DNA from: Siniperca chuatsi
Taxonomy: Eukaryota; Chordata; Actinopteri; Centrarchiformes; Sinipercidae
Direction of reading: 5' to 3'
Length of the DNA: 64,000 nucleotides
Assembly: GCF_020085105.1 (NCBI RefSeq)
Contig: NC_058053.1
Span: 18,374,388 to 18,438,387 of the forward strand
In this document: piece by piece, positions 7 through 59,969 of the stretch
Numbering within the stretch: the stretch's first letter is position 1
Layout of the letters: every line of letters starts with the position of its first letter
Notes under the pieces: generated by a model
What the model saw: only the letters and a program-made list of their open reading frames with translations
Databases searched by the model: none
Told to the model about the DNA's origin: nothing
Position numbers and translations under genes: made by a program

Positions 7-3000
7 GTGATTGGAACACCCCAGAGACCGACAGTATCCAATACCATTTTGGTAAACAGTCCACATACACCCAGTTCCCAGTTCCTCACTCAGAGTCAAC
101 CGTCCGACGCCTCTCCTTGGTCATCAGGGTAAGTCTTCAAAAGGTCCTTAAGTTTATAAGCTTGGAACATCTAAGGAAAATACATAAGTTTGACATTATT
201 TATTGTATTTGATGTGAAAATTTGTTGATGGTGGGGATCTGTTCTGTCTGCAGAAAACGTGGTAAGAAAGGGGAAAAGAACGGGAAGGGCTTGAGGCATT
301 TTTCCATGAAAGTGTGTGAGAAGGTGCAGAAGAAAGGCGTAACCACCTACAATGAAGTGGCAGATGAACTGGTCGCAGAATTTAGCTCTTCAGACAACCA
401 CATGTCACCCAATGACTCGGTGAGTACTGCAGCTGCATGACGTTTTCTCAGAATGACGCAAACCCATTTCATAATTATTTTTTTAACAATTTATAATTTA
501 TATTTGTTTTTCCACTTCAGCATGTGTATGACCAGAAGAACATTCGGCGGCGTGTGTACGATGCACTTAATGTGCTCATGGCCATGAACATTATCTCTAA
601 GGAGAAGAAAGAAATCAAATGGATTGGCCTTCCCACCAACTCAGCGCAAGAGTGCCAAAACCTAGAGGTAGAAACACACAGTGAAGACCGTTCTCACTAT
701 AGCTTGTGTTGGGGATGCCTTGCCTTTTACCTGTGTTATAACGCTTAATCATTACTCCTTTATTTCAACTGTAGGTGGAGAGACAAAGGCGGCTGGAGAG
801 GATTAAGCAGAAACAATCACAGCTCCAGGAGCTCATACTGCAGGTGGGAATGAACTGAGTGCATGTACTTGTGTTCAGGGGGGTCACATATAGGCTCTGT
901 AGCTATGATGTCGGAGATGATTGTTCATTGTGAAGACAACATCAAGCATCAATAAGGGCTCTTTAATTTTCTGCTTTTCAGTAAAGCACATACCGTCTCA
1001 TATTCTGCCCCCTCACGTATGTAAATAGGAGGACAAAAAATTAGAAACACCTCTTAATATAATGTAGTCCAGTACAACACCACCTTTAACTATGACCTTG
1101 GTTATAAGCATATAGTTAAATGAATACCTCTCTGACAGTGTCAATCAAAGCTGAACATTATTATCTTTGTTATGGTGAATTGGATTGCATTAGAGGTTAC
1201 AGGTGTATCTAATAAAGTGGCCACTGAGTGTATATACGATTACTTGGGGTAGATAATAAATGCACAAACAGCTTGACAATCCATTTAGTGCTATGGTGGT
1301 GGTACGACAGTCAGTGAGAGAAATTCTGTGCTGAACTATAAAGCGGTTGCTTTGTTGGAGACATTTACAGCGGGACTGCCCTAACAATGCAGGACTTAGG
1401 GCAGCAAAAGCATTGCTGAAGAATGTGGCAGAAATGTTTTGTTTTTTTGAAATGTTGAATGTGCTATCAATCTAAACTGAAAGCTTCTCTGTAGCTGTAT
1501 CAAAGCTGTCATCTTTCTTTGATATTGTCTTTACAGCAAATAGCTTTTAAGAACCTGGTTCAGAGGAACAGACAGACAGAGCAGCAGGCAAACAGACCTC
1601 CACCTCCCAACTCCATCATCCACCTTCCCTTCATTATTGTCAACACCAGCAAGAAAACTGTCATCGACTGCAGCATCTCTAATGACAAGTATGTGATTGT
1701 GCTAGCCTTCATTTTCTTTTACCTTCAAGGCTCATGTTCTTTAAATTAATAGCAAAAGAATAGTGCAGTGATAGACTTGTGAAATGACCCAATAATTTAA
1801 CCTCCCTATATTGTAGGGATACACTTAGACTATTTACCCCTCTAACCAGGTTTGAATTTAAGGATCATTATCCCTGGCAATCCTGGGTTAGTCGGAGAAA
1901 ATTTCTACTAGTCAGGGCAAATGATTACTAGCACAATACACAAGTCATGTGACAGTTGTATTTAGGGTCTATTTAAACTAGTAAAATGTATTATTTGCAG
2001 GTTAATAGTTTTCCAGCCCATGGCAATTAAGTAAAGTGTGAAAATCTTGAGTGCCAAGTTGTTAAGGTTGGGCATCAAGATAAGTGTGATTAACAGAGAC
2101 GCAATTTCTTGAGAAGATGACTCAACAGTTCAGTATTTAGATGTTTAGCAGCTGACTTTGAAGTCCTAAATGTGAAACCATCCCACTGGCATCTAAACGC
2201 AACATAATAATTAAGTATTATACTTAAAGTATACTAAGTTTACTATTAAATATAGTATGAAAAGGCTCTAATGCACTGCAACAATTAGCAAGAAGTTCAC
2301 AATCCCATTGTTGCCTCTAAAATTTTTATAGGACAATAGTGAAGGTACTGTTTTTTAGAGCATGACTTCTTTAAACAATAATCCATGTTCAGATGAACAT
2401 ACACACTGGATAGGAGATGGAAAAATGAGGCTGGTTTGACCGTTTAAGTAAATTCTGTTTACCAGTGAAATAAACAAAACCAGCCACACTTTTCACCGCA
2501 GTTCCTATGCCCAGCCAAATGTGAGGGAATTGTAACCCTTAAGGCTTTTTATGGCCTTCGATTGTTTCAGGGTAACCACCAAAGTCTGGAAAACCAAGTA
2601 GGTAATAATTTCCTCTTTGCCAACAGCAGGTGGATCACGTCCTTTTCAAATAACTTTTTAAAATGGGCCAACACAATTATACTTAAAAGTTCAATGCACA
2701 TTGAACAAAATCTTGTATACTGCATTTCTAGTATTTACCATTTTATTAAACACTCTAGCACTGTCTTTTAGTCAGAATTCCTTGAACCACCTTAAAGTTG
2801 TATTGGGAACACTTCAAAATTGATAATTCCCCCTCGCTGTTCTTCCTCTTTCTCACCTGCAGGTTCGAGTATTTGTTCAATTTTGACAGCATGTTTGAGA
2901 TCCACGATGACATCGAGGTGCTGAAGCGTATGGGCATGGCCTGTGGTTTGGAGGTGGGAAAGTGTTCTCAAGAGGATCTGAAGGTTGCACGTAGCCTGGT

Positions 3001-4550
3001 GCCCAAAGCTCTGGAGCCCTACGTTATAGGTCAGTGCCACAGCCCTGAGTGTACCACATGCTCATTTTGAGTGATTGGTCAGTTGCTGATAAGCTACTGT
3101 TAATGCAAACCAAACACAACCATTTTTCTGCTTCACATTAAAAGCCTTTACTTGGTGAACAACAGAAAGCCTTTTATTGCAAAGCAGCTGCAGGAAGCGC
3201 AGCCTTGTGTGTTTGTTGAAAGTTGTCCAGGGCATTTTTCAGAGATATTTGTCAGCGGATCAGTTTTAAAGAACGCAAAGGACTGAACAGTAAAAGAGGC
3301 AGCAGCCACAGTAACCTGGTTAGATTACGATCTGCAGGTGAAAGGCTTTTACTTAATTTTGGTTTAGTTCCCTACATCTCAACATGTCACCAAGGTAAGC
3401 AACTTTTGCTGTGCCTCTCCTTTTGTATGGATAAGCATTTTCATTGTGCCCACGTCACAGTAGGCACAGCGGTATGGCAGGTGTCTCAAGTGCATGGAAA
3501 TATGAGTAAAATTACGAAATTATACTGTTACCTCCAATACCTCCAAAGCAAATTCTGACACAAAGTCTTGTCATTCTACACTTTTGATGAAAACAAAGGT
3601 GTTCTAAACTCACTACAAAATTACAGGTTTCAAATAGAGAGGTTTGATGTGCTGATTTTTGGTTGGCATGTTAGTTATTACGTATAGTATGATGGTGTAA
3701 TGCCATTTTTTTCAGTCTTAAAGGAAAGTCTGGCTGACTCGCATAACATTAATAACTGCACAGTCTGTCTGAGTCACCTGCTGCACCTTTTACACCACTT
3801 TGATAATGTAACTGAAGAAAGTTTCAAAAAATAAGGGTGAAATTTGCCTGGTGACTCGGCAGTGATTTACGAAAAAGTGATGCCAGGGTTTGTGGGTCAG
3901 GAAAGTTAGTCTTTAGCTGCAGTGGATGAATGTCTGTGAAGGAGAAGATTTTTATTGTAGTTTCTGGTATCCCTCTTTTGTATGTCCTTGCCTCAATTAT
4001 TACAGAAACAAACAAAAAGTGCTGTTTGACACAAAGTTTTATAAACTGTTGGAGAAAGTTGTAGCCTGCTTATTTATACAATGATTGCTACCTTGCGCTG
4101 GCGACACGCTTCCAGTGGGTCTTCACTGTAACAGTGGTGGGACTGCAGAGGAGAGATGATTTTAGGTATCATCAAAGTCAACATATTTCTTTATGTTGAT
4201 GTATTTTCTTTTTTTTTCTCAGAGATGGCAAAGGGTCCCATCAGTAACGTCTACATCACTGGAGGGTCCTCTGCAAATGGAGCCCGTTACCCTGCAAGCA
4301 GGTGAGAGGTCTCACCTGTAATTCAACCTATAATGGAACAGAAAGCAGATGTTGTTATGCTCCCCGCTCTGTCACCTTTCCCACCATTAACTTATCCTCC
4401 TCTCCTCGTAGTGATGGCTGCACTGATGGCACCATGGCCTCCAGCTCGAATGACTCTCACTACAGCGGGTCTCGTGTGGAGACCCCAGTGTCTTATATGG
4501 GGGATGATGATGATGAGGACGAGTATGATGAGAATGATGATGAAGACTAA
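7..4550 (+). CDS. tfdp1: Transcription factor Dp-1, C-terminal eight coding exons (5' end outside window)
   Basis: DP1 pairs with E2F proteins and binds cell-cycle promoters in the nucleus. Coding exons seen: 7-128, 254-419, 521-667, 775-843, 1537-1688, 2863-3029, 4223-4301, 4412-4550 (stop TAA 4548-4550). All have AG acceptors and GT donors and phases join without a break, giving 346 residues. In order the product shows the linker beginning VIGTPQRP, the winged-helix DNA-binding domain ([14 protein letters not shown] and the [20 protein letters not shown] recognition helix), a short coiled coil ([14 protein letters not shown]), the DP marked-box region ([38 protein letters not shown]) and an acidic tail ([15 protein letters not shown]). 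From memory this matches TFDP1 better than TFDP2, through the VETPVSY plus acidic end. The first methionine and N-terminal exons are upstream of the window. Which teleost ohnolog (a or b) cannot be decided. Confidence 0.95.
1030..1240. mobile_element. Worn copy of the CAGTGGCC foldback family
   Basis: Lies in a tfdp1 intron. GGACAAAAAATTAGAAACACC and the end GTATCTAATAAAGTGGCCACTG correspond to the right half and right terminus of the element at 21077-21451. The left half is missing or too diverged to see. Confidence 0.65.
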
Positions 4551-5590
4551 CTTGTCTACGCCTCGCCACTCCAACTAGCACAGTCCTTCAAACCACCTTC
4601 ACCTTGGGAATTTAGTCCCTTTTTTGTGTGTGCTTCTTCAACCTTTTTCCCCGTTTCCCATGCCTGTATTTCTGTCTGGCTTTCTCAGGGGTGTAGATGA
4701 TTATTGAAAGAACAGAGGGTGTATGTTGCACCCATCTTTTTCTGCTCCTGAATCACGTGCACCTGCACCACAGCTCTGGGGGAGGTGTCGTCCAAGGGAA
4801 CTGTAGTCTGTGGCCTGGCCACCACGCTGAAGTCTCTGTCTAATCCACTCCTCAATAAGCCATCCCACAAAAAAAACACCTGTAAAACTTACTGCTGTTG
4901 GAGAATGTATAATGTACTTGTTTAAATAGTTATTCCTATTGTTTTGCAATTTCATATGGCAGACATGATGATCAAAATGTTCAAAGGTGGCCAAAGTGTC
5001 TGCTTTAACGTGCTGTGTTAGTGCAACACCATGGATTCTGAATGGCCTAATACAGTTCCCATGGCATCCCAGGATGGGGCTCCATCAGATGTGTTGATAC
5101 TTTTTGTTTTGTGTTCTGGGCAATAATTTGAAATAGTTTCTTATCCCCCATAGTGTTGGGCTGGCTTCCTTCTGTTCTGTAGGCAGCTGCTTTCCTGATC
5201 TTGTTTGCTAGTTTTGTTTTTTGTATTCTGGAGTTAAGGAATTCTCCATCACCGCCCTGTTAACGCCTTGGTAGTGTTTACAAAATAATGGCACCAGCAA
5301 GGTAAAGACTTTTATAACCCAGGCTCCTGATAGGTAAATAAGCTTTGTTTGTGAATTACGTATATGAATCCTACGACGATTGTAGCTTATAGTATCCTTT
5401 AGAGGCCAGTGGTAAAAGATAGACCGTAAAAAATTATTGATGTAACAAAATGTGTGGTTGCATAGGTCTTTATGTATTCCCTTCAAAGATCTCCCTTTTA
5501 AAACTAAGCAACACATGTACTGACTCAAATACTTTTTCTGTAATCTAATATAAGTTTGCAAATTAAATATAGATTGTTTTAATAATTTTG
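4551..5590 (+). other. tfdp1: Probable tfdp1 3' UTR
   Basis: About 1 kb follows the tfdp1 stop without another exon. An ATTAAA variant poly(A) signal lies at 5562-5567, with a T-rich stretch just after it, so the transcript probably ends near 5585-5600. The exact end is inferred. Confidence 0.45.
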
Positions 5591-5867
5591 TATCTATAAT
5601 TTATGTGGGCTTTATACAGAAACAAGAAGGTCACCTATTATTTGTCTCAGGCCTGGCATAATATTTCTAACTTGTAGGCAGAAATAATACCTCACAGAAT
5701 ATCAAATTTCTTTTTATTTATTTTTGCATGTCAAGCAACAAGGCTTTTTACAAATTGTCACAACAGCTCGATTCCTCCGACATTTCACCTGCCAAAGGAC
5801 CTGGTAAAAGAATATTTCCGTTTTTTAAGATCCCTACTGATTTGAGACTCGTGGTTCTTTTAAAAAG

Positions 5868-6272
5868 GATTAAGACTGGTTCCTAGACTTCCGTGTGCTG
5901 GAGGAAAGGTGGGTTTGGGTTAAAGGGAGGCGTCTGCTTGTCAGAGGAACGCCACAGGAAAACTACATGCTAGACACTCAAGAAGAGGATATCTATGAGG
6001 TGAGAACAATTTATTATATGCTGTTTTACTCACCATGCCATTGGTCCTTATTATGCTACCATAGTTTCATGTCTATCGGGTTTTAATTTCAATATATGGA
6101 CGGATTTACGAGTGCAGTCACTGACATTGAGACTGGGCCCTCATTAATGAGGTGCCCAAATGTTTCTGACATGGAGAACCGATAAGGGCCAAAATGAAGC
6201 ACATGCTGCAGGCACTGAATCATTTGGAAGTTTTTCTTTTCAGTGTCGACGTCTGCTTAATAAGTCTGATCC
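5868..6272 (+). pseudogene. Decayed partial duplicate of grk1 exon 1 end plus start of intron 1
   Basis: This segment aligns with 8586-8985, the last ~140 bases of grk1 coding exon 1 and the start of its intron 1. The first 29 bases from 5873 are identical to 8591-8619 and cover the codons for DWFLDFRVL. An extra A then shifts the frame just before the glycine-rich loop, and further indels and substitutions follow. The splice-donor context TATGAGGTGAGA is kept at about 5993-6004. Similarity continues into the intron, for example around ATGAAGCACATGCTGCAGG (6194-6212), which matches intron 1 near 8900. Because intron sequence is included, this is a DNA-level duplication, not a retrocopy. It lies upstream of the real gene, on the same strand, and cannot encode a working kinase. 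Confidence 0.88.
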
Positions 6273-6879
6273 TAAGGCATCAAAACATGTCTGCTTGATA
6301 TTTAAACTCCGTTTTTGCACATTAATAAAAAGGTTCAGGTTTTTTCATTAAAACAAAACTGTAATGCCCATATGCATAATTGAAAGGGTTATTGGTCGCA
6401 GTAATCATTCCTCCTTTCCATACTGGCCACAAATCTGTTGCTAGAGTCCAATGTCTGTAGTGGGGGACAAAATACACGGTCGTAATTTTGTGTAAAATCA
6501 CATTAAGTTCAGCTGAAGCTAAAATGAGGCTTTGTCAGTCTGAGAAAGTCAAATAAAGTGGGTATGTTCCAAAGTTAGTCTTTTTACTACAAAATTCCCT
6601 CCTTGTGCTTCCAGTGTTTGTTTGGCATGTCATTATTGTATTGCGATATAATTGAAACATTTGAACCTATTCATTTATATTTCACACTTAGTATTTATTT
6701 AATCGAATGTATCTTATAAATATAAACACTGATGTATTGAAAAAGATTATTCCAATATGTTGTGTTTATCTGTACGTAGGCCTCCCAATTAATCACAAAC
6801 ATGATTCATTTTAATATCCAGCAACTGCTTGATTACAGTACCACTGCTAATTGTCGTTTGCTTGTTGATTGACTGGTGA

Positions 6880-7668
6880 CCAAGTTACTGAAATTTAGGC
6901 TAAAAATTAGTTCTCTCAAAAGTAATTGAATTACTTTACCAATTACTGCATATAAAAGTAACTAATTAGGCCTACTAGGGAAAGTAACATTTGCTTTACT
7001 TTTAAATTTATGCTTTAATTCTCTTATTAATGCGCACAGTTGAAACAATCAACTTTTGGAGAAACGCATCCCGACGTCATGCTGCGGTGGCCAATCCAGC
7101 GATCAGATCGGTCAAACTGCGTCCTGAAATATCACTTCGTGGAACAAACTATGACACTCTCCCAGTTGTGTCCTGGCTTGGTTTATTTAGTGTCCCCAGC
7201 TTCGATTTATGTGTCTATGCTGAAAAATAGCGATACCAAGAAGCTTCCTTTGGGAGGGAGCGGAAGCGGTGGTCAAGCGACCTATAGAGTGAATGAGGAG
7301 AGGGAGCGCCGGTAGTGAGAAAGCCGGTGAATCAGAGAAATAAAATGCTGTTTTCTGATTGTTTCACAGCAGTTACATTCTAAAACACAAATAACGCACA
7401 CACCAGCGGCTTATCGCTACAATACCTGATTTGGTCTTAATGAAGTGGTTGGTGACATTAGATCATAAACTGGAAAAACCAGGTAGGCCGTAATAGGCTG
7501 CTTTTGTCTGCTGCAGGCCTACTCTGCAGTTGTCCACTATTTTCAGGTAAGTAAAGAGTAACTAGCCCATTTAAATTTCAGTAATTGCGTTATTTAATTT
7601 GAAAAAGTAATTAGTTACATGTCTAGTTACTGCCAAAAGTAGTGTAATTACAGTTACTCCCAACACTG
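6880..7668. mobile_element. hAT-like non-autonomous DNA transposon remnant
   Basis: Both flanks carry runs built from GTAATTAGTTAC/AGTAACTAGTTAC-type motifs in opposite orientation (6888-6990 and 7540-7668), and the right edge ends CCCAACACTG, the terminal pattern of a common fish hAT family. The interior (7030-7470) is G+C richer, has no transposase domain, and contains the phrase GGGAGGGAGCGGAAGCGGTG, which I associate with this repeat. The left terminus is worn. The family assignment rests on recognition, not a search. Confidence 0.6.
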
Positions 7669-7756
7669 CTGGTGACACTCCAGCTGCATAGGCTGCCTGT
7701 GTTGTTCTGTTCCAGCATGTGCTTGCACACTTTGTCTGGGGCATTAGGGTGTTAAT

Positions 7757-7782
7757 GGATTACAGAAAGGTGTTGACTCAGG
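7757..7782 (+). promoter_or_regulatory. Putative CRX/OTX and NRL-type sites upstream of grk1
   Basis: GGATTA (7757-7762; reverse complement TAATCC) is the core bound by CRX/OTX homeoproteins. It is followed eight bases later by TGTTGACTCAGG (7771-7782), close to the NRL/MAF consensus TGCTGANTCAGCA. Both lie about 250-275 bp before the grk1 start codon and just downstream of the hAT-like element. Paired CRX and NRL sites are typical of rod photoreceptor promoters, which fits the downstream gene. Function is inferred; single short matches can arise by chance. Confidence 0.4.
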
Positions 7783-8030
7783 TGTGTGTGTGTGTGTGTG
7801 TTTGACTGAGGGTGGTACAGTGCTCACAGTGTGCTGGGATCTAGTTGAGACATCAGCCTCAAGTTCCCATTTCTCTCTCACGTCTTCCACTACTCTGTGA
7901 TTTTCTCACCTTTGCTTCATCCTTTTACTATCTCACCCCTTCACATTAGTGAGCAGCATTTATCCTCTGCCTCTGTTTTCTCTTTGCAATGTCTCTTCCT
8001 TGCGTTGCCTAACAGTCACCTACCCTCAAC

Positions 8031-11875
<3,845 letters not shown>

Positions 11876-12692
11876 AGTCATTGAAACACCTTGAAAATAC
11901 ATCAACCATACAGTGTATAGACTTGTAGTTCTCTAGAACATGTGGCATGAAGACTCAAATACTCAGGGCAGACACAAGTCTCTTCTGAATTTTCTGATCG
12001 CAGAGTCAGATTGAGACTCTAAACTTTTATTGGTGAGCGCAGGAAACAACAAGAATGGAGGTGGATTTTCAACCTGGAATGGACTTGAGCATAGATTTAG
12101 GAGTTAAGAAAAAAGAAATGTATTGACATTATATCCTCTGCCCCCCCACTCTGTCTTCATCCTCTCTTTTTTTGTCCCTCTCTCAATCCGTTCACTCTCT
12201 TCTCTTTGTGTGTGAATGTGTTCAATTATTGTAATGCTTTTAGATGATTTTAAAATGCATTTTAAAGGTCACATTTTTACGCAGGGCTTTAGTTATGTGG
12301 TATGTTTGGTGCTAAGTGACAGTCACGACATGTTGAACATGTAAAATGTTTGATATTGCATATGTGCTCCTATAGTATAGGATGCCATTTAATGGAAAGT
12401 GCTTTTGTTTCTTTTTGAGTTTACTGTCCCTTAGTTTTTGCTATATACAGCTAAATTAATTGCTGCTGTTCAAATACCAAAAGCTAAGACAACAGAAACG
12501 CAAAGTTTCATGATTTTGGAAAACATTTTCTTATGTGTTTATTTCATGGTTCATAATTGACTCTTTGCATGAATAACCAACTTTTAATAACATTTTATGT
12601 AGTGTAGTTGCTATGAGACAAATTTGAATATAGAGAAATATTAACAGCAAATAAATTTATTTTTCAAAACAAATTGTTGAGCAAAAATTGAA
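11876..12692 (+). other. grk1: grk1 3' UTR
   Basis: No further exon follows the grk1 stop at 11873-11875. Candidate poly(A) signals are AATAAA at 12650-12655 and another at 12689-12694. The first is fused to an oppositely oriented signal for the convergent methyltransferase gene. Confidence 0.5.
12650..12661. terminator. Palindromic bidirectional poly(A) signal between convergent genes
   Basis: The 12-mer AATAAATTTATT is its own reverse complement. It reads AATAAA on the + strand (12650-12655), 775 bases after the grk1 stop, and AATAAA on the - strand (12661-12656), about 280 bases after the methyltransferase stop. T-rich sequence follows on the + side. Use by both transcripts is inferred from position. 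Confidence 0.55.
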
Positions 12693-12939: not shown

Positions 12940-15515
12940 TCACTCCTTCGCTGTGGCCTTGTATATCCCCACCTCCTGCTGTGGGAGCTCGATGAGCAGT
13001 GTGGTGTTGAAACTGCTCTTAAAGCATTCTGTGAACCTCAAGTCTGACTGGAACCGGATCTTGTTGGCCCACAGCAGCGTTGTTCGACTTCCTGGTCGGC
13101 AAAAGTGACGCATGGTTTCCAGCAGTTCTTTAAGGCAGTTGTGGTGATAGACCACATCAGCTGCGAGCACGTAGTCGTAGTGGTAGGACGGGTAGGGAAA
13201 GTCTCGCTCCAGGTCCTGACCCCAGGTAAGGGCAACCACCTGAGGAGTGTAGCGGGACCGGCCCTTGGTGTTCCGCATTAGGTTAAAGGTCAGATTTGAC
13301 AAGATGTCTGGCAGGTCAGTAGCTGTCACCCAAGCACCTGGAAAAGAGTAGAGAAACAACAAGACAGCTGAAGTACAGATAGGAAGACCCATACACCCCG
13401 TTTTAGCCACCTTAACGGCTAACAGCTAACTGCTGGGCTCCAGGGATGCAATGCTGGTCTGTCGGTTGTTCCGTCCACCACTTTGGTCCAGACTGAAATA
13501 TCTCAATAACTATTACATGGATTGCCATGAAATGTTGAACAGACATTCGTGGTCCTCTAAAGATGAAACATAACGACTTTGGTGATCCTGACTTTTCGTC
13601 TAGTGCCACCATGAGGTTGACATTTGTGGTTTTGAGTGAAATGTCTCCAAGGCTCGCCTTAAAATTTTGTTCATGTCCCCCTCAGGATGAATTGTAATAA
13701 CTTTGGTGATCGTTTAACTTTTCATCAATTTCAATTTACAAAAACACTGATGACTTTCCCGTCAGCCTGAGCTGTAGTTAGTGTTTAGTGCTAATTAGCA
13801 AATGTTAGCATGCAAACGTGGTAAACTAAGACGGTGAATATTACAACGACTACCTGCAAAGCAAATAAACTGGGTTTGTCTTGTCTTGCTGATGTTAGCA
13901 TTTAGCTCAATGCACCGCTTGACTCAAATCATAAATTTGATGATAAAATTTGAAATTCCACTTTGAAGTTATCACCAATAATGTATAACTTCACTTGGAT
14001 CTTGATCCTCTCACAAAGCCCAAAACAGAATCATTTTGGCAGGACCAGCTGTGTGTTTAGAGAGAAGACATTCAGACCAGTGTTTGAACTAGGAAGGTCA
14101 GTAATGCTTTGTGTTGAAGTGCTTTTGAAAGAATAATTGTAACTTCATGGATTTCTTTTAGTTGTGTATTGATAAAGGCAGAGGAATGAACAGTTCTAAA
14201 GAGTTTTAATGATTCCCTTTGTGTGTATAGATGTTTGATTTCATAGGGAATAAAATGACACTCATGTTTCCACTGCATGATTAATGGAGGCACCAAAGGA
14301 CGGCAGTATCAGTCCGATAATAACTTTGTTTGTCAAGATATCTTTACAGCTACTTGCCTGTTTGCAATGCAGAAATTTTGATGTGGGCGGAAAGTCACGG
14401 TCCTCAGACAATGACTCCCACTCTTTTGGTGACCCTCTGATGTTTCCCTGAGTTCCACTAACAGGCCAAAATGTAAATTTTGCACAAAAGATGAGCAGAT
14501 ACCCTTAAAATATTGCATATTTATGCACCCAAGGGAATAAACCCTTTATGGCTTTTCTGCTAGCACAACAATCAAAGAGTACCACAACTGTTCTAAGTAT
14601 GTTCAATTTTATAAAAATGTCATGATTAATGCTAATTTGATCATTAATTTTATATACAACTAACTGTTAGTGTCAGCATTTGCATGTAATGGCATCAAAG
14701 TTGTCAAAAGCCTGTTAATGAGTTATGTTATTATTTAGGACTTCAGTGTCAAGACTTACTAGTGAATTCTTGTAGACAAGGTTATTGTTTCATACATACA
14801 GTACATATTGTGTGAAGTGCAAATGCACTTTATTATCATAGACTTACCAAGCAGACTGGCCACTATTGAGAGCAAACCAGTCCCAGCTCCAATCTCCAGC
14901 ACCGCTTTGTCCATCAGGTTCACTTGTTGCTGGTTATTCTCCAAGAACTGGCACAAAGCTATCGCCTACAAAATAAAGTCTCATTATCACATTTGCAACA
15001 ACCAGGTCAGAGAATGTACAGATACACTCAGTCATGGCAGGGCGTACCCCGGGCCAGATCAGAGCACCATAAGTGTCCATGGACTCGCGGATGCTGATGT
15101 CATGACCAGCAAATTGAAAAGACTCCTGTCCCAGTGCGTAGTAAACACTCGGCTCCCAGATGCTCCTTCTGTCCAAAGCCTCTCCTGCCATCACTTTTTG
15201 GTCTGTTAACGCTGTAGAGGAGAATGTTGCATGAAGAGTCAGGTTACAATTCTGCACACTTACAGCACTGATAACAAATCTGAGTGTAACAAATCTACTT
15301 TGAGAGAAACTGTTCCTCTCCTCTGCAATACAGAAACTAGGCTAGAGATGGCAGAGCAAAATACAAAAGACATACACATACTCTTGAGTGTTCAATCTAA
15401 AGTTACCCTCATCTGTGGTCCCATGCTCAGCTTGTAGTTTCCCATCCTGTTTTTTGTCACCCACCTCCTTTTTCTCACATGGGACAGGTTGGCTGACTGT
15501 GGACAATCTCTCCAT
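12940..15515 (-). CDS. METTL21-family protein-lysine methyltransferase (METTL21C/E-like)
   Basis: This family of seven-beta-strand S-adenosylmethionine enzymes methylates lysines on non-histone proteins; METTL21C and E are muscle enriched in mammals. Coding exons on the minus strand: 15515-15407, 15211-15048, 14965-14848, 13337-12940 (stop TGA at 12942-12940). Phases join to 262 aa, near the 264 of human METTL21C. Motif I is EIGAGTG (115-121), the acidic residue of the next strand is in TATDLPD (Asp138), and the family DxxY motif is DVVY (191-194) followed by HH. Upstream, FAGHDISIRESMDTYGALIW matches the FAGKEIVIQES..YGAVVWPG region I know from METTL21C. The start in exon 15515 follows a good acceptor at 15529-15528 and leaves 12 bases of 5' UTR. 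Distinguishing METTL21C from 21E or a fish-specific copy needs a tree. The gene converges on grk1. Confidence 0.9.
13470..13945 (+). repeat. Dispersed fish repeat with TTAGCATGCTAA-type core, copy 1
   Basis: Lies in the last intron of the methyltransferase gene. It begins near TGAAATATCTCAATAACTAT, contains GACTTTGGTGATCCTGAC, and ends with GTGCTAATTAGCAAATGTTAGCATG and GATGTTAGCATTTAGCTCAATGCACC. The same blocks in the same order recur at 38535-38985 and 56130-56645, so it is an interspersed repeat. A worn fragment (CCTCAGACAATGACTCCC...GGTGACCCTCTGATG) is seen again at 14385-14475. Confidence 0.8.
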
Positions 15516-22659: not shown

Positions 22660-25600
22660 CTAATAAGTATAAGAGCAGATGAAAGCCTGAGGTTCCCAGC
22701 ATGTGAAGTCATTGAACTTTCCATTTCCTGAAAGATAAACAAACAGCAGATCAGAAACCCAGTGGCACAGTAGTCAATATTCAAATTTGCTACAACATAA
22801 AAGTTAAAAAAAGTATCTGTGTGTTTCAGTTCAGCTTTAACCACAATCTGACTCCTACCATGTGCCAGCACTTCCACACAGTCCTCCAAATCTGCTGTGT
22901 TATTGGGCTCCCCTGACAGCCAATCAGCATAGCCCCAGCGGGATCCATCCAACCAGACAAAGCGACCAGTCTGACAGACAACAGGAGATTAATGAGGTGC
23001 AGTCAGATAGAGAAGTCATTTATTTGATTCATTCTCCAGATACTAGCACAGCAATGAAATGAACCACTGTCATGGTGCGATTAATGAAGGGTAAATTATT
23101 ATTTTGTATTTTCAACAACATATTTAGGACCCCCTACTCGCTGACTGAACATACGCACATCCAAATATCGTAGTCCTCCAATCCAGGTGCGTGTATATGC
23201 CCCGTTTTGCCACAGCATCATGTTCATCACCTCTCTGTGGATGTGTTGGCTTGTGATGGAGGCCAGGTGGCCACCAGGGAAATGTTCTTGGCAGAAGAAC
23301 TGCAGTGAAACAGAGACAGACAGTGACAGTGAGGACTATGTACATTATCAGCTGTGTGTTTCTAACTTTCTGAAAATCTCATGGTGCATCTATGAGATAG
23401 TGGAGAACATGTAAATACTTCAGCATCTGCAGCCCTCTTTGGCCCTTTGAAGAACCGGTAACACTTCCCCTCAAGTATCACACCAGAAGAACAGCTCCAC
23501 CCTGTGGTGAAAAGGAGAAATTTCATTTTCAGTCTTGTTTCTCTTTAAAGGATAGGTTCACATTTGTTCAAATCTATCTTAAAACAAAACTCACATGCAC
23601 CACATGCACCTATGAACACTGAAACATTTTTAGTCACTGTAATCATTTCTCTTGTCCATACTGTATGTGTGTGTGTGTGTATAATATTTTATTTACACTT
23701 TACCTTGCTTGTCTTGTTTTGGTGATAATCTTCCTTCTACCTGCCTCATCAAATCCCTTTTTTCTCTTAGAGGCACCACACCAGTCTGAACACCTCCATC
23801 AAGCACAGGATTGTCTTCCAGGACTGGAGACAGCTCCTCCTCCCTGACAAACTCCCTCCCTGGTTCCTCCATCATCAAATAGTCTGACCCCTCTGCTGTG
23901 AGAGAGTCTTGCAGTTTGCCAGGATCCATCCCCATCCTAGCCTCTTCATTTGGGAAATAATCCCCTAAAGATGGCATCTGCTGCCCCATAATGTCAAATG
24001 CTGGCCCTTCTTCCATGATTGCAGAATTTTGCATGACCTGTTGATGTAAAAAGGACTCTTCCCTCGTCTCAGGCTCCAGTTCCACGATTGGTTCTCTATT
24101 TAAAACATAGTCCTGCTCACTCATAAGCTCCTCCTCCTCTGGCAGAGGTTGATCTTGATTCTGAAATGCCGCCCTCAAAGACTTTTCCACCTCTGACAGC
24201 TCCGTATTGCTCAGTTCCTCTTCAAACATGTTGTCGTCATCCAGTGGCTCCAGCTCCATGATTGGCTCATCCACCATCTCCATGTCAATGTGCCTCTCTT
24301 CGAACTCCCGACCTGTTTCAGTCTCTGGCCCGAGGTTCATTTGCACCTGAAACTGCTCTTGAACCTCCTCCTCATTAAACAGGGCCTTCACTTCAGGCTC
24401 TTGAACATTTGGCTCCACCTTAACCTTTGATTCCACCTTAAAGTCTTGGTCATCTTTGAGCTCTGGCTCCACGTTAACCTCTGGTTCAGCCAAAACTTCT
24501 GGGTCCACATTAGCCTCTAAATCCACCTTAATTTCTGGCTCCATCATAACCTCTGGCTCCACCTTAACCTCTGGCTCTGCTTTTAGTTCCTGTTCATCCT
24601 TAACTTCTGGGTTTTCTTTACCCTCTTGCTCCACCTTAACCTCTGGCTCTGCTTTTAGCTCCTGCTCCACCTTAACCTCTGGCTTTACTTTAATCTCTAG
24701 TCCCACCATACCGTCTTGCTCCACCTTAACCTCTGGCTCTGCTTTTAGTTCCTGCTCATCCTTAACTTCTGGGTTTTCTTTACCCTCTTGCTCCACCTTA
24801 GTCTCTGGCTCTGCTTTTAGCCCCTGCTCCACCTTAACTCCTGGGTTTTCTTTAATCTGTAGTTCCACCATACCGTCTTGCTCCACCTTAACCTCTGGCT
24901 CTGCTTTTAGTTCCTGCTCATCCTTAACTTCTGGGTTTTCTTTACCCTCTTGCTCCACCTTAACCTCTGGCTCTGGTTTAACCTGTGGTTCTGCTTTGAA
25001 CGCTGGCTCCTTCTTAACCTCTGGCTCTGCTTCACCCACTTTCTCCACTCCAACTTCTGGCTTCACTTTAACCTCTAGTTCCACCATACTCTGGCTCTGC
25101 TCCATGTCCACTGGCTCCTGCTGCTCCTTGGAGCCTAGCCTGACTTGTGGCAGAGGATCGTCCACCACCACAGGGCCCTGCTCAGGAACCCAGTCTCCCA
25201 GCAGAGGGCGCTGGTCTTCTTCAGTCAAAACAGGATTTTGTGCCACACCTGGAGCAAATGGTGGAATTCCCAGAGCCACTGCAAAGAAAAAATAAAACAC
25301 ACATTTGCTGGTGAAATAAGGCAGATTCCCTTACCAGCGCCCATGAATGGATTATGAGACAATGGGACTCTGGGCACAGACATGTAAAAGGCTCCCCACC
25401 CCTTATAGTTTGTTAATTTCTTTATTTTCTGTATAGCATTTCCATCGTAAATCCTGAACAATAATTACAAATAACAGAATGATTAGTACATGATATGATG
25501 AGATAAACATGACTGATAGTTAACTAGACTCTCTTTAAGCATGTGACGAAGCTCATAAACCAAATCACAAGCAGATATGTTTTAACTTCAGTCATTACAG

Positions 25601-32900: not shown

Positions 32901-35900
32901 ATTTAGCATGTTAAATACAGAGAGATGTGATTCGTGTTCTTGTCAATAATGTGAGCAGCAGTAAGATTGTTGTACTTGACCTGGCGGTAAAAAACTGTCC
33001 TCCCACCCCTCTCACCCCTGCAGGTCCTGTCTGTCTGTCAGTGACAGTAAGCAGCAGTAAACCCAAAGTGGAGGTCCACGAGCACACAGGTGAGACTGTG
33101 CACTGCTGCTTTTCTGACTATCATTTGATCGTCTTTAAAATTACCACAAGTGTAAAGGACAAAATTGTCTAATATGATGGAAGTTTTTGGTCTCATTTAA
33201 CATTTGTCTTATCTTTAATATTTTATTTATTGTTTTATTTTTAAGAGCAACTTAAAGGGACAGTTCACTCCAAAATCAAAATTACATATATTTCCTCTTA
33301 CCTGTAGTGCTATTTATCCATCTAGATTGTTTTGGTGCTGAGTTTTGGAGATATCGGCCATAGAGATTTCTGCCTTTTTTTGAATGGAACTAGATGGCAC
33401 TTGGCTTGTGGTGCTCAAAGCACCAAAAAAAAAAAAACATTTGAAAAAACTCATCAGCAACGCCTCTTTCCAGAAACCATGACTGTTACTCAAGATAATC
33501 CACAGATTTGTTGTGAGTAGTTTCATGTACGAGCTATCGGTAGAAAGAAAAAAGTTCATACATGAAACTGCTCACAACTAATCTGGTGACATTCGCATTA
33601 TGCATAGGTGCATCTGAACAGTAATCAGATAACAGTTTTCTATATTTTTAAAAAAAGGAGTAGTGCAGGAGTGATTAGTATTAATATAAATGATATTTAA
33701 TGCCCACCACATCTGAGTTTTCTTGAATTTTTTCCTAGTTAAAAGTTTTTTTCGGGGAGTTTAAAAGGGTCTAAGGATAGAGGGTGGTGTATGTTGTACA
33801 GATTGAGGCAAATTTGTGATTTGTGATATTGGGCTATAGAAATATTTATATAAAATGACTTGATTTGACATTTAGGAAGAGACAGGAAGAGAGGTATTAC
33901 ATCTGATATTTGCTTTTCTGATTTGCATCTCTCATTCCAAAACAAATCAGTCAAATCAACAGACAACAGATTTATGCAGGATGTGAACAGATTTACATAA
34001 TTACACCTTAAATTACCTCATGTCTTCTTTAATGAGAATTACAGATATATATTTCAGAATATTTTCTTGGAAAATCAACCAAGATAAAGGGAAAACAGCA
34101 GATATCTAATTTCATGCTAAAAACAAATTGCGAAATTGATACAGGAAATGAGCAAAAACATTTTTTACATTATTTAAACCAAATAATGGGACAAATTATT
34201 TGCAAATTCAAACAAGGCCAAAAGTATATATACTGTGGATTGATATGTCATTTTGCTGCTTTTGTCTTTCCAGATGCTGTGCTCGCCTGTGAGTTCAGGA
34301 CAGAGAAAGATCAGAGCCCTCGAATCGAGTGGAAGAAGAAAGGAAAGGGGGTGACATTTGTGTATTTTAATGACAAATTTACTGGTAAGTGATGACAAAC
34401 CTTCACTGCTTCACTTTGTTTAGCATTTATTTAAGCTTTGTCCATCCTATATCATCTTTCCATTACCTTCCACTACAGGGTCTTATGCAGGACGGGCAAA
34501 GATAGAGGGCGCGACGCTGACGATACACTCTGTTACTCAGAAAGACTCGGGGGAATACCGCTGCGAGGTGACTGCCAGCGAGGACCACGTCAACCTCGGA
34601 GAGGCTACTGTAACCCTCAATGTGCTCGGTATGATGGGAAACCTTTATGTGTTTTTGTGAATATGTAAATATGCATATGTGAGGGTGAGTGGGTATGTAT
34701 TTGTGTGAAACAAATAAACAGTAAACTTCTGAAATTTGCTTGGTTTTGTCCAGGAAAGCATGTCACACATTAAATGGTGCCTTTAAAGTCACAGTGAAAT
34801 GGCAGCATCTCTAGCTTCTGTAATGTGACATATTTCTGAGTGAAACAGTATATGTGGGCAGGATTAAGTTATAAGATCAAAATCAATCAAATTTTAAATC
34901 CTGCGGAGAGATACAGAGCTGTAAAGGACTGACTCCACACACACCTCCCTCACCCAGGAAGTGGAGGATAAGGGTTAAATTAATAAATTAGACCTCAACC
35001 ACATTCTTTGGAAATGTAAATAAAGTTTTTGCCAGCTGAAATTCAAACACACACCTCCTCCTACTATGAATATTGCTCTGCTAGGTTCCCACTAGCCAGT
35101 GGTCAAGTGCAGTTTTACATGATGGGAGGGGTTAGCCTGTCACCCCAAATCACATTTGATCGGATAAATTTATGCAACCGCCCTGAGTTCAAGATGAGTC
35201 ATCAAATATATATGTTTTTCCTCTCTGCCTCCGCAGTGCCTCCTCATGTCCCGTCCTGCGAGGTGCCGAGCTCTGTGTTTGTGGGCTCAGAGCTGGAGCT
35301 TCTCTGTAAGGACAAACTCAGTGTGCCTCCTGCCACCTACCGCTGGTACAAAGACAACAAGGCTCTGACGGCCACAGCAGATACTCCATACAGCATCAAC
35401 ACAAACAAGGGCACACTGGTGAGCACACACAAAAATGTGCAAATACTCGTGTACAACAGGCACACACGCTTAACCCAGGAGTGTATAAACACAGATATGT
35501 ACACATGTGTACACATCTGTTGCTCTCCTCTCTTTAATTAAACTCTCACCTTTTCTTTGTCTGGAGCAGAAGTTTAAGAGTGTGTCTAAAACAGACGCAG
35601 GCATGTACCGCTGTGAGTCCTCCAACAGTGCGGGGGCGCCCAAGAGCTGTGTGGCCCAACAACTGAAAGTTATTGAATGTAAGTGGTTTTGGTACAACTC
35701 CTCTTTGGAGTTTACACATCACGCTCCACTCATGTAAGACTGAGGAAACACTCTCTTTCCCCTCTTTCTAGATCCTTTGAATATGACGATTCTGATAGCA
35801 GGTGCTGCAGGTTTTCTGACACTCGTCCTTTTCTGCTGCATCTGTGTGTGTGTCTGCCGACGCCGAGGTTGCTGCAAGAGTGAGTAGTGCGATGATGCTC

Positions 35901-45786: not shown

Positions 45787-46085
45787 TTGTTGTGAGCAGT
45801 TTCATGTAGAAATCCTACATGAAACTGCTCACAACAATGGATTATGGATTGATTATCTTGAGTAACCGGGTCATAATTTCTGGAAAGAGACATTGCTGTT
45901 GAGTTTTTCAAATGTATTTCTTTGGTGCCACAAGGCGAGTGCCATATAGTTCCATTTTATTAAAAAAAGGCCGACATCTCTACGGCCAGTATCTCCAAAA
46001 CTCGGCAACTCACACTAAAACAATATAGATGGATAAATAGCACAACAGGTAAGAGGAAAAATATGTATTTTTGATTTTGTGTTTT
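45787..46085 (-). mobile_element. TTAAAGGGAC-family repeat, copy 2, ending in a perfect hairpin
   Basis: Reverse-strand relative of 33253-33584; shared blocks include TTTCTGGAAAGAGACAT, GCCAGTATCTCCAAAACTC and ATAGATGGATAAATAGCAC. One end is a perfect 23-bp inverted repeat (45787-45809 and 45815-45837) with the five-base loop AAATC. Confidence 0.85.
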
Positions 46086-59155: not shown

Positions 59156-59497
59156 TTAAAGGGCTAAACCAAAATTATCTTAGGAACTATCGGTAGAAAG
59201 AAAATAGTTTCTGCACGAAACTGCTCACAACAAATCTGTGGATTATCTTGAGTAAACTGGTCATGATTTCTGGAAAGAGACATCGCTGTTGAGTTTTTCA
59301 AATGCATTTTTTTGGCACTTTGAGCACCACAAGCCGAGTACCATATAGTCCCGTTAAATAAAAAAATACAGACGTCTCTAAGGCCGATATCGCCAAAACT
59401 TGGCAACTCACACCAGAACAATCTAGATGGATAAATAGCACTACAGGTTAAGAGGAAAAATATGTATTTTAGATTTTGGGGTAAACTGTCCCTTTAA
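59156..59497 (-). mobile_element. TTAAAGGG-family repeat, copy 3 (complete)
   Basis: Both ends read TTAAAGGG inward (59156 on, and complement of CCCTTTAA ending at 59497). Internal blocks match copies 1 and 2 (AACTATCGGTAGAAAGAAAA, TTTCTGGAAAGAGACATC, AATCTAGATGGATAAATAGC). TTAA at both edges suggests TTAA target-site use. Confidence 0.85.
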
Positions 59498-59969
59498 GGC
59501 TGCTCCTGGCTAATGTCCGGTCTGGACGAAATGGGACTCAGGCTGGAAATCTGAGACCTGTTCCATCAACATCCCAGATCAAGCACTTGACGGGTGGACC
59601 GTGTTTCGAGCTGAAGGAGCGCCAGACTCTGTTGAGATGAGGGGAAGTGGACTCTGTGTTTACATCGATGGTGCTTGGTGCTCAACCACAGCCAAAGTTG
59701 ATGGACACTGTTTCCAGATGTTCACATTTTATGTGAAGATAATAACCATATTATTATCTTCACTATCTTGTTGCTGCAGTCTTGCATTCCCCCATACGCA
59801 AATTCAGAAAATACAATGAATTATTTTCTGGGTATATATGTGTCTGTATATATGTAAATAACTGTAGGATATATATATTGCATGTGTGTAGCATGAAGGG
59901 ACTACTAACTGAATTTGTTGTACAATGTTGTGTTGTATAATGATACATAAATTACCTTGTAGGCTACCT

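Follow-up and report, generated by a model that had tools for sequence, protein, structure and literature searches.

Between a tfdp-family gene and grk1 in Siniperca chuatsi lies a stretch of about 400 bases that resembles the end of the first grk1 exon and the start of the intron behind it, and it raises the question of how such a piece came to stand apart from an intact gene and whether it has been of any use there. We addressed this question within a window of 64,000 nucleotides of NC_058053.1 (contig C12; the window is the whole stretch of DNA that was analyzed). The coordinates of the features are collected in Table 1.

Table 1. Features of the grk1 region, in window coordinates
Feature	Position	Strand	Basis
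Part of tfdp-family gene, upstream	497..4550	+	E2F_TDP in 497-745, DP domain in 2786-3067
Relic of grk1 exon 1 3' end (matches 8585-8729)	5867..5999	+	Alignment; broken frame
Relic of grk1 intron 1, first 253 bp (matches 8730-8982)	6000..6269	+	Alignment; right end approximate
Stretch right of relic; three short repeat-like matches with sequence upstream of the C1 grk1 paralog	6334..6598	.	Matches to L043: 6334-6428, 6365-6424, 6547-6598
Dispersed multi-copy repeat between relic and grk1 exon 1	6874..7675	.	Genome search
grk1 exon 1 (parent; residues 1-233)	8031..8729	+	Rhodopsin kinase matches, translation
grk1 intron 1 (parent; relic matches only 8730-8982)	8730..9577	+	Alignment
grk1 exons 2-7	9578-9705, 10530-10687, 10776-10859, 10955-11079, 11186-11387, 11586-11875	+	Intact frame

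The grk1 locus

The parent, grk1, is an intact rhodopsin kinase gene; its seven exons have GT/AG borders and encode 561 amino acids with the C-terminus CCIS, and the best Protein Data Bank matches of exon 1 were rhodopsin kinase chains (E 1.1e-88). Downstream, at 12943-14965, two minus-strand open frames match the Methyltransf_16 lysine methyltransferase family. In the tfdp-family gene upstream, the exon ending with the stop codon at 4548-4550 is presumably the last one, an assignment made from its acidic tail, without a Pfam match of its own. An 81-bp stretch around that stop (4535-4615) has a 96% identical copy (78/81) at L004:1476-1556 on contig C22, which is apparently another small gene fragment. 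Judged by its last residue, serine, the grk1 on C12 fits GRK1A, which PMC5795056 describes as ending in serine.

Extent and reality of the partial copy

Pairwise alignment of the relic region with grk1, which the earlier note had asked for, gave one continuous same-strand block in which 5867-6269 matched 8585-8982; in grk1 this takes in 145 bases at the end of exon 1 and 253 at the start of intron 1. The block scored 119.5 in local alignment, whereas 300 dinucleotide shuffles gave a mean of 15.2 and a maximum of 23, so that chance similarity is ruled out; the intron part alone scored 50, with a maximum of 22 in 500 shuffles. BLASTN of 5500-6600 against the window matched 8585-8703 at 80% (E 1.8e-27) and gave a short second match inside intron 1, at 8893-8918. 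These results confirmed that the relic, as observed, is a real, decayed copy of about 400 bases of grk1 upstream of the gene. The earlier note had put it at 5868-6272 and called it a partial tandem duplication. A partial grk1 duplicate is indeed present upstream, but its span is about 5867-6269, and the two copies are not tandem in the strict sense: their starts are 2718 bp apart, and between them lie 2315 bp, among which are the 554 bp that open exon 1. The run of 29 identical bases that had been reported was found at 5873-5901 (equal to 8591-8619), and the relic was rightly taken to be a duplication at the DNA level, as intron sequence follows the exon sequence in it. The presence of that intron sequence rules out a processed (retro) pseudogene.

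The exon parts of the relic and the C12 grk1 were 89.6% identical in the lenient alignment and 88% in the strict one. For the intron part, identity was 64% under strict and 76% under lenient gap costs, and as shuffled sequence under the lenient costs gave 68% on average and up to 75%, the percent identity of the intron is poorly fixed; its homology is secure by the local score. An assembly error is unlikely to account for the relic, because 13 of the 125 aligned exon sites differ from grk1 and there are five gap events besides, and because at 8590 and 8642 the relic has the base common to both paralogs used below while the gene differs from them.

Decay of the exon part

Read in the frame of the parent, the exon part contains stop codons, and the frame is broken; the earlier note had placed the break right before the ATP-binding glycine loop. 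A 1-bp insertion stands at the start of the loop, and with it there are an insertion of 7 bp and deletions of 4, 15, and 1 bp. The 13 substitutions fall 3, 6, and 4 times on codon positions 1, 2, and 3, respectively; with no third-position bias, they give no sign of a coding phase. When the differences were polarized with the paralogs on C1 and C14, nine of the 13 were derived in the relic, two in the gene (8590 and 8642), and two were ambiguous, a split to be expected when a copy without constraint stands beside a gene under constraint. All of these counts were made on pairwise alignments; a four-way MAFFT alignment misplaced the gaps of the relic and was left out of them.

The changes are not spread evenly, in that 51 consecutive aligned exon sites (5873-5930) are free of substitutions and yet have the insertions of 1 and 7 bp inside them. 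With 13 changes among 125 sites, a run of that length arose in 1.0% of random placements (P = 0.010, post hoc). The unchanged stretch could reflect a short gene-conversion tract from grk1, past constraint, or chance. Furthermore, taken as a whole, the exon part differs less between the copies than half the intron divergence predicts, if intron identity is near 64%.

A short duplication or the remains of a lost gene

Two origins had been proposed in the earlier note, a short segmental duplication and the remnant of a once larger tandem grk1 paralog, and the sequences flanking the relic bear on both. Five comparisons of the flanks with the remainder of grk1 and the region upstream of it gave scores that 70, 20, 33, 84, and 68 of 200 shuffles, respectively, also reached, whereas the positive control, at 128.5, was reached by 0 of 200 shuffles, the highest of which scored 20. 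The flanks tested thus showed no match to the upstream region of grk1, the remainder of intron 1, or the stretch holding exons 2-7, and 5300-5866, to the left of the relic, did not match the first 554 bases of exon 1. When 8000-12400 was compared with the rest of the window by sensitive BLASTN (E up to 0.1), the relic was the single match, and TBLASTN of the 561-amino acid protein (E up to 1) returned no region other than that of the gene itself and the relic.

With the flanks at chance level in all five comparisons, the short duplication is favored, and we consider it very probable, from the sequence comparisons, that the relic is a same-strand duplicate of a short piece of grk1 which has drifted without function since its birth. 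On this reading, a segment of about 400 bp across the border of exon 1 and intron 1 would have been copied at the DNA level from this grk1 and inserted in the same orientation about 2.7 kb upstream, in the interval that separates grk1 from the tfdp-family gene. The comparisons themselves establish the likeness, where it stops, its source in the C12 grk1, and the decay. As the origin we infer a one-step local copying error, perhaps template switching during replication or repair. The copy would have lacked a promoter, a start codon, and the later exons from the start, and would therefore have been dead from birth and drifting ever since.

A complete tandem grk1 that later lost its promoter, the 5' part of exon 1, and exons 2-7 by deletion would also leave a same-strand copy close to the gene, and deletions do occur within the relic. 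However, this history requires several complete deletions, as no match was found in the flanks for the 554 bp at the start of exon 1, for exons 2-7, for the remainder of intron 1, or for the upstream region, even though exon sequence of the age of the relic is still easily recognized where it is present (88-90% identical). The larger paralog thus found no support in the flanks, and we regard it as improbable.

Copies elsewhere in the genome and the age of the relic

When the relic DNA was searched across the 718.8-Mb, 65-contig assembly, two places were listed, the relic itself and the C12 grk1; weaker copies would be missed by this search, because very common words were skipped and the exon of the C1 paralog was not listed although it can be aligned directly. 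In direct comparisons, the relic and exon 1 of the C1 paralog were 74% identical over 97 columns, and no match was found between the relic and the C14 loci L011 and L015. The same kind of search with grk1 DNA listed 16 places: the gene itself, the relic, five on C1, three near 10.9 Mb of C14, and six others that are single-exon matches (C14 at 27.4 Mb, C13 twice, C7 twice, and C5).

The GRK1A-type paralog on C1 belongs to the same gene family as the C12 grk1, and both proteins end in serine. Unlike the relic, it is not a fragment; it matches the C12 gene over five exon-sized stretches, and in exon 1 the two are 76% identical in protein and saturated in synonymous divergence (pS 0.75). BLASTN of the C12 intron 1 against the C1 locus found no match. 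Within the stretch copied into the relic, however, the C12 and C1 exons are 87% identical (195/224), which is close to the 88-90% of the relic, so that exon identity alone cannot date the relic in this constrained stretch. Because its intron is still recognizable and it appears unconstrained, the relic apparently arose after the split of the GRK1A-type paralogs on C1 and C12, and, to judge from the two gene-derived differences, its origin apparently preceded two or more substitutions of the C12 gene.

The splice donor

As the earlier note had pointed out, the splice-donor context is retained: the nonamer GAG|GTGAGA is identical in both copies, with the first intron base at 6000 in the relic and at 8730 in grk1. 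Scored with a donor matrix, the relic donor equaled that of the parent and was second best of the 240 GT sites in 4600-8030. The chance that the nonamer would remain unchanged was 0.37 at the substitution rate of the relic exon and 0.08 at the lenient, uncertain intron rate. With chances of that size, survival of the donor needs no selection and is no evidence for a decoy exon.

If the relic were used as a decoy or other non-coding exon, with its donor joining into grk1 or with the relic lying in the 3' untranslated region of the tfdp-family gene or in a read-through transcript from it, such use would draw on this donor, on candidate acceptors at 5651 and 5830, and on poly(A)-signal words beyond the relic at 6324 and 6347 (another precedes it at 5562). 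Against it stand the retention of the donor as expected by chance, the many indels that the relic carries, and the lack of any Rfam match at the gathering threshold in 4500-12000, and we consider such use very unlikely. Still less credible is the stronger form, that the relic would be spliced to this day as a non-coding exon modulating the output of grk1 or the tfdp-family gene, the 51-site stretch then representing constraint or continuing gene conversion. A known RNA family is ruled out by the same search (0 matches).

Repeats near the relic

Two kinds of repeated sequence lie between the relic and grk1 exon 1. The repeat-like matches of 6334-6598 fall in L043:3719-4079, and the same stretch also matches the window once at 23579-23663. 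The repeat at 6874-7675 had at least 53 genome matches when 40 of 1590 candidates were scored; one of these matches is the window itself, and some are parts of a single copy. By its ends we take the repeat to be hAT-like. A tandem-repeat scan of 4500-12000 found two short arrays, neither of them in the relic. That the relic was captured by a transposable element, of a Helitron- or MULE-like kind, is a highly improbable reading. Both repeats do lie to its right, and farther out it is enclosed by two short inverted pairs, with arms at 5535-5550/7753-7768 and 5555-5569/7591-7605. However, the genome search with the relic listed only the relic and its parent, and of the five inverted pairs found in 5000-8030, none places its arms next to both ends of the relic (5867-6269). 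A dispersed transposon as the identity of the relic itself is ruled out by those two listed places.

Class and frequency of such fragments

An unprocessed (duplicated) pseudogene is a DNA-level copy that contains intron sequence and carries frame-breaking mutations. The relic resembles one in both respects and differs in being only a fragment, without start codon or promoter region. With partial homology that includes intron sequence and a disrupted frame, it would be placed among partial gene duplicates or unprocessed pseudogene fragments. Partial gene duplicates, in which part of a gene is copied, an intron may be included, and frames may be disrupted, much as in the relic, are reported to be frequent in nematode and fly genomes in a review (PMC3449122); those duplicates were classified by comparing open reading frames, whereas the relic straddles one exon-intron junction, has no start codon, and is decayed.

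For a base rate in this genome, 20 arbitrary 10-kb pieces (200 kb) contained 14 local pairs of similar segments, eight of them on the same strand, and three of these eight (201, 51, and 125 bp) had no match in the other sampled pieces. Three pairs per 200 kb is an upper bound for pairs like the relic and its parent, because low-copy repeats and short-spaced tandem copies were not filtered out. Given these local two-copy pairs and the reported frequency in nematodes and flies, the class of partial duplicates looks ordinary, and the relic is most likely an ordinary dead fragment of a local DNA duplication. It was not described in the titles or abstract openings listed from the literature on grk1 duplication in teleosts, pseudogenes, and partial duplication, and a search for literature on GRK1/TFDP1 synteny in fish found none. 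Its wider importance is small: as a small local duplication of DNA next to a vision gene it makes a clean example, and it could mislead gene predictors or the mapping of reads for grk1 exon 1. If relatives carry the same relic, the event could be dated from it, and it could be used as a rare genomic marker.

Two further features of the window were observed. A long minus-strand open frame of 545 residues at 23696-25330 contains degenerate repeats with many E, P, V, and K residues, with a self-match at an offset of 162 bp and no Pfam match at E 0.001. Three segments, at 33251-33527, 45815-46079, and 59211-59498, are 78-82% identical to one another in self-comparison and are probably copies of a dispersed repeat.
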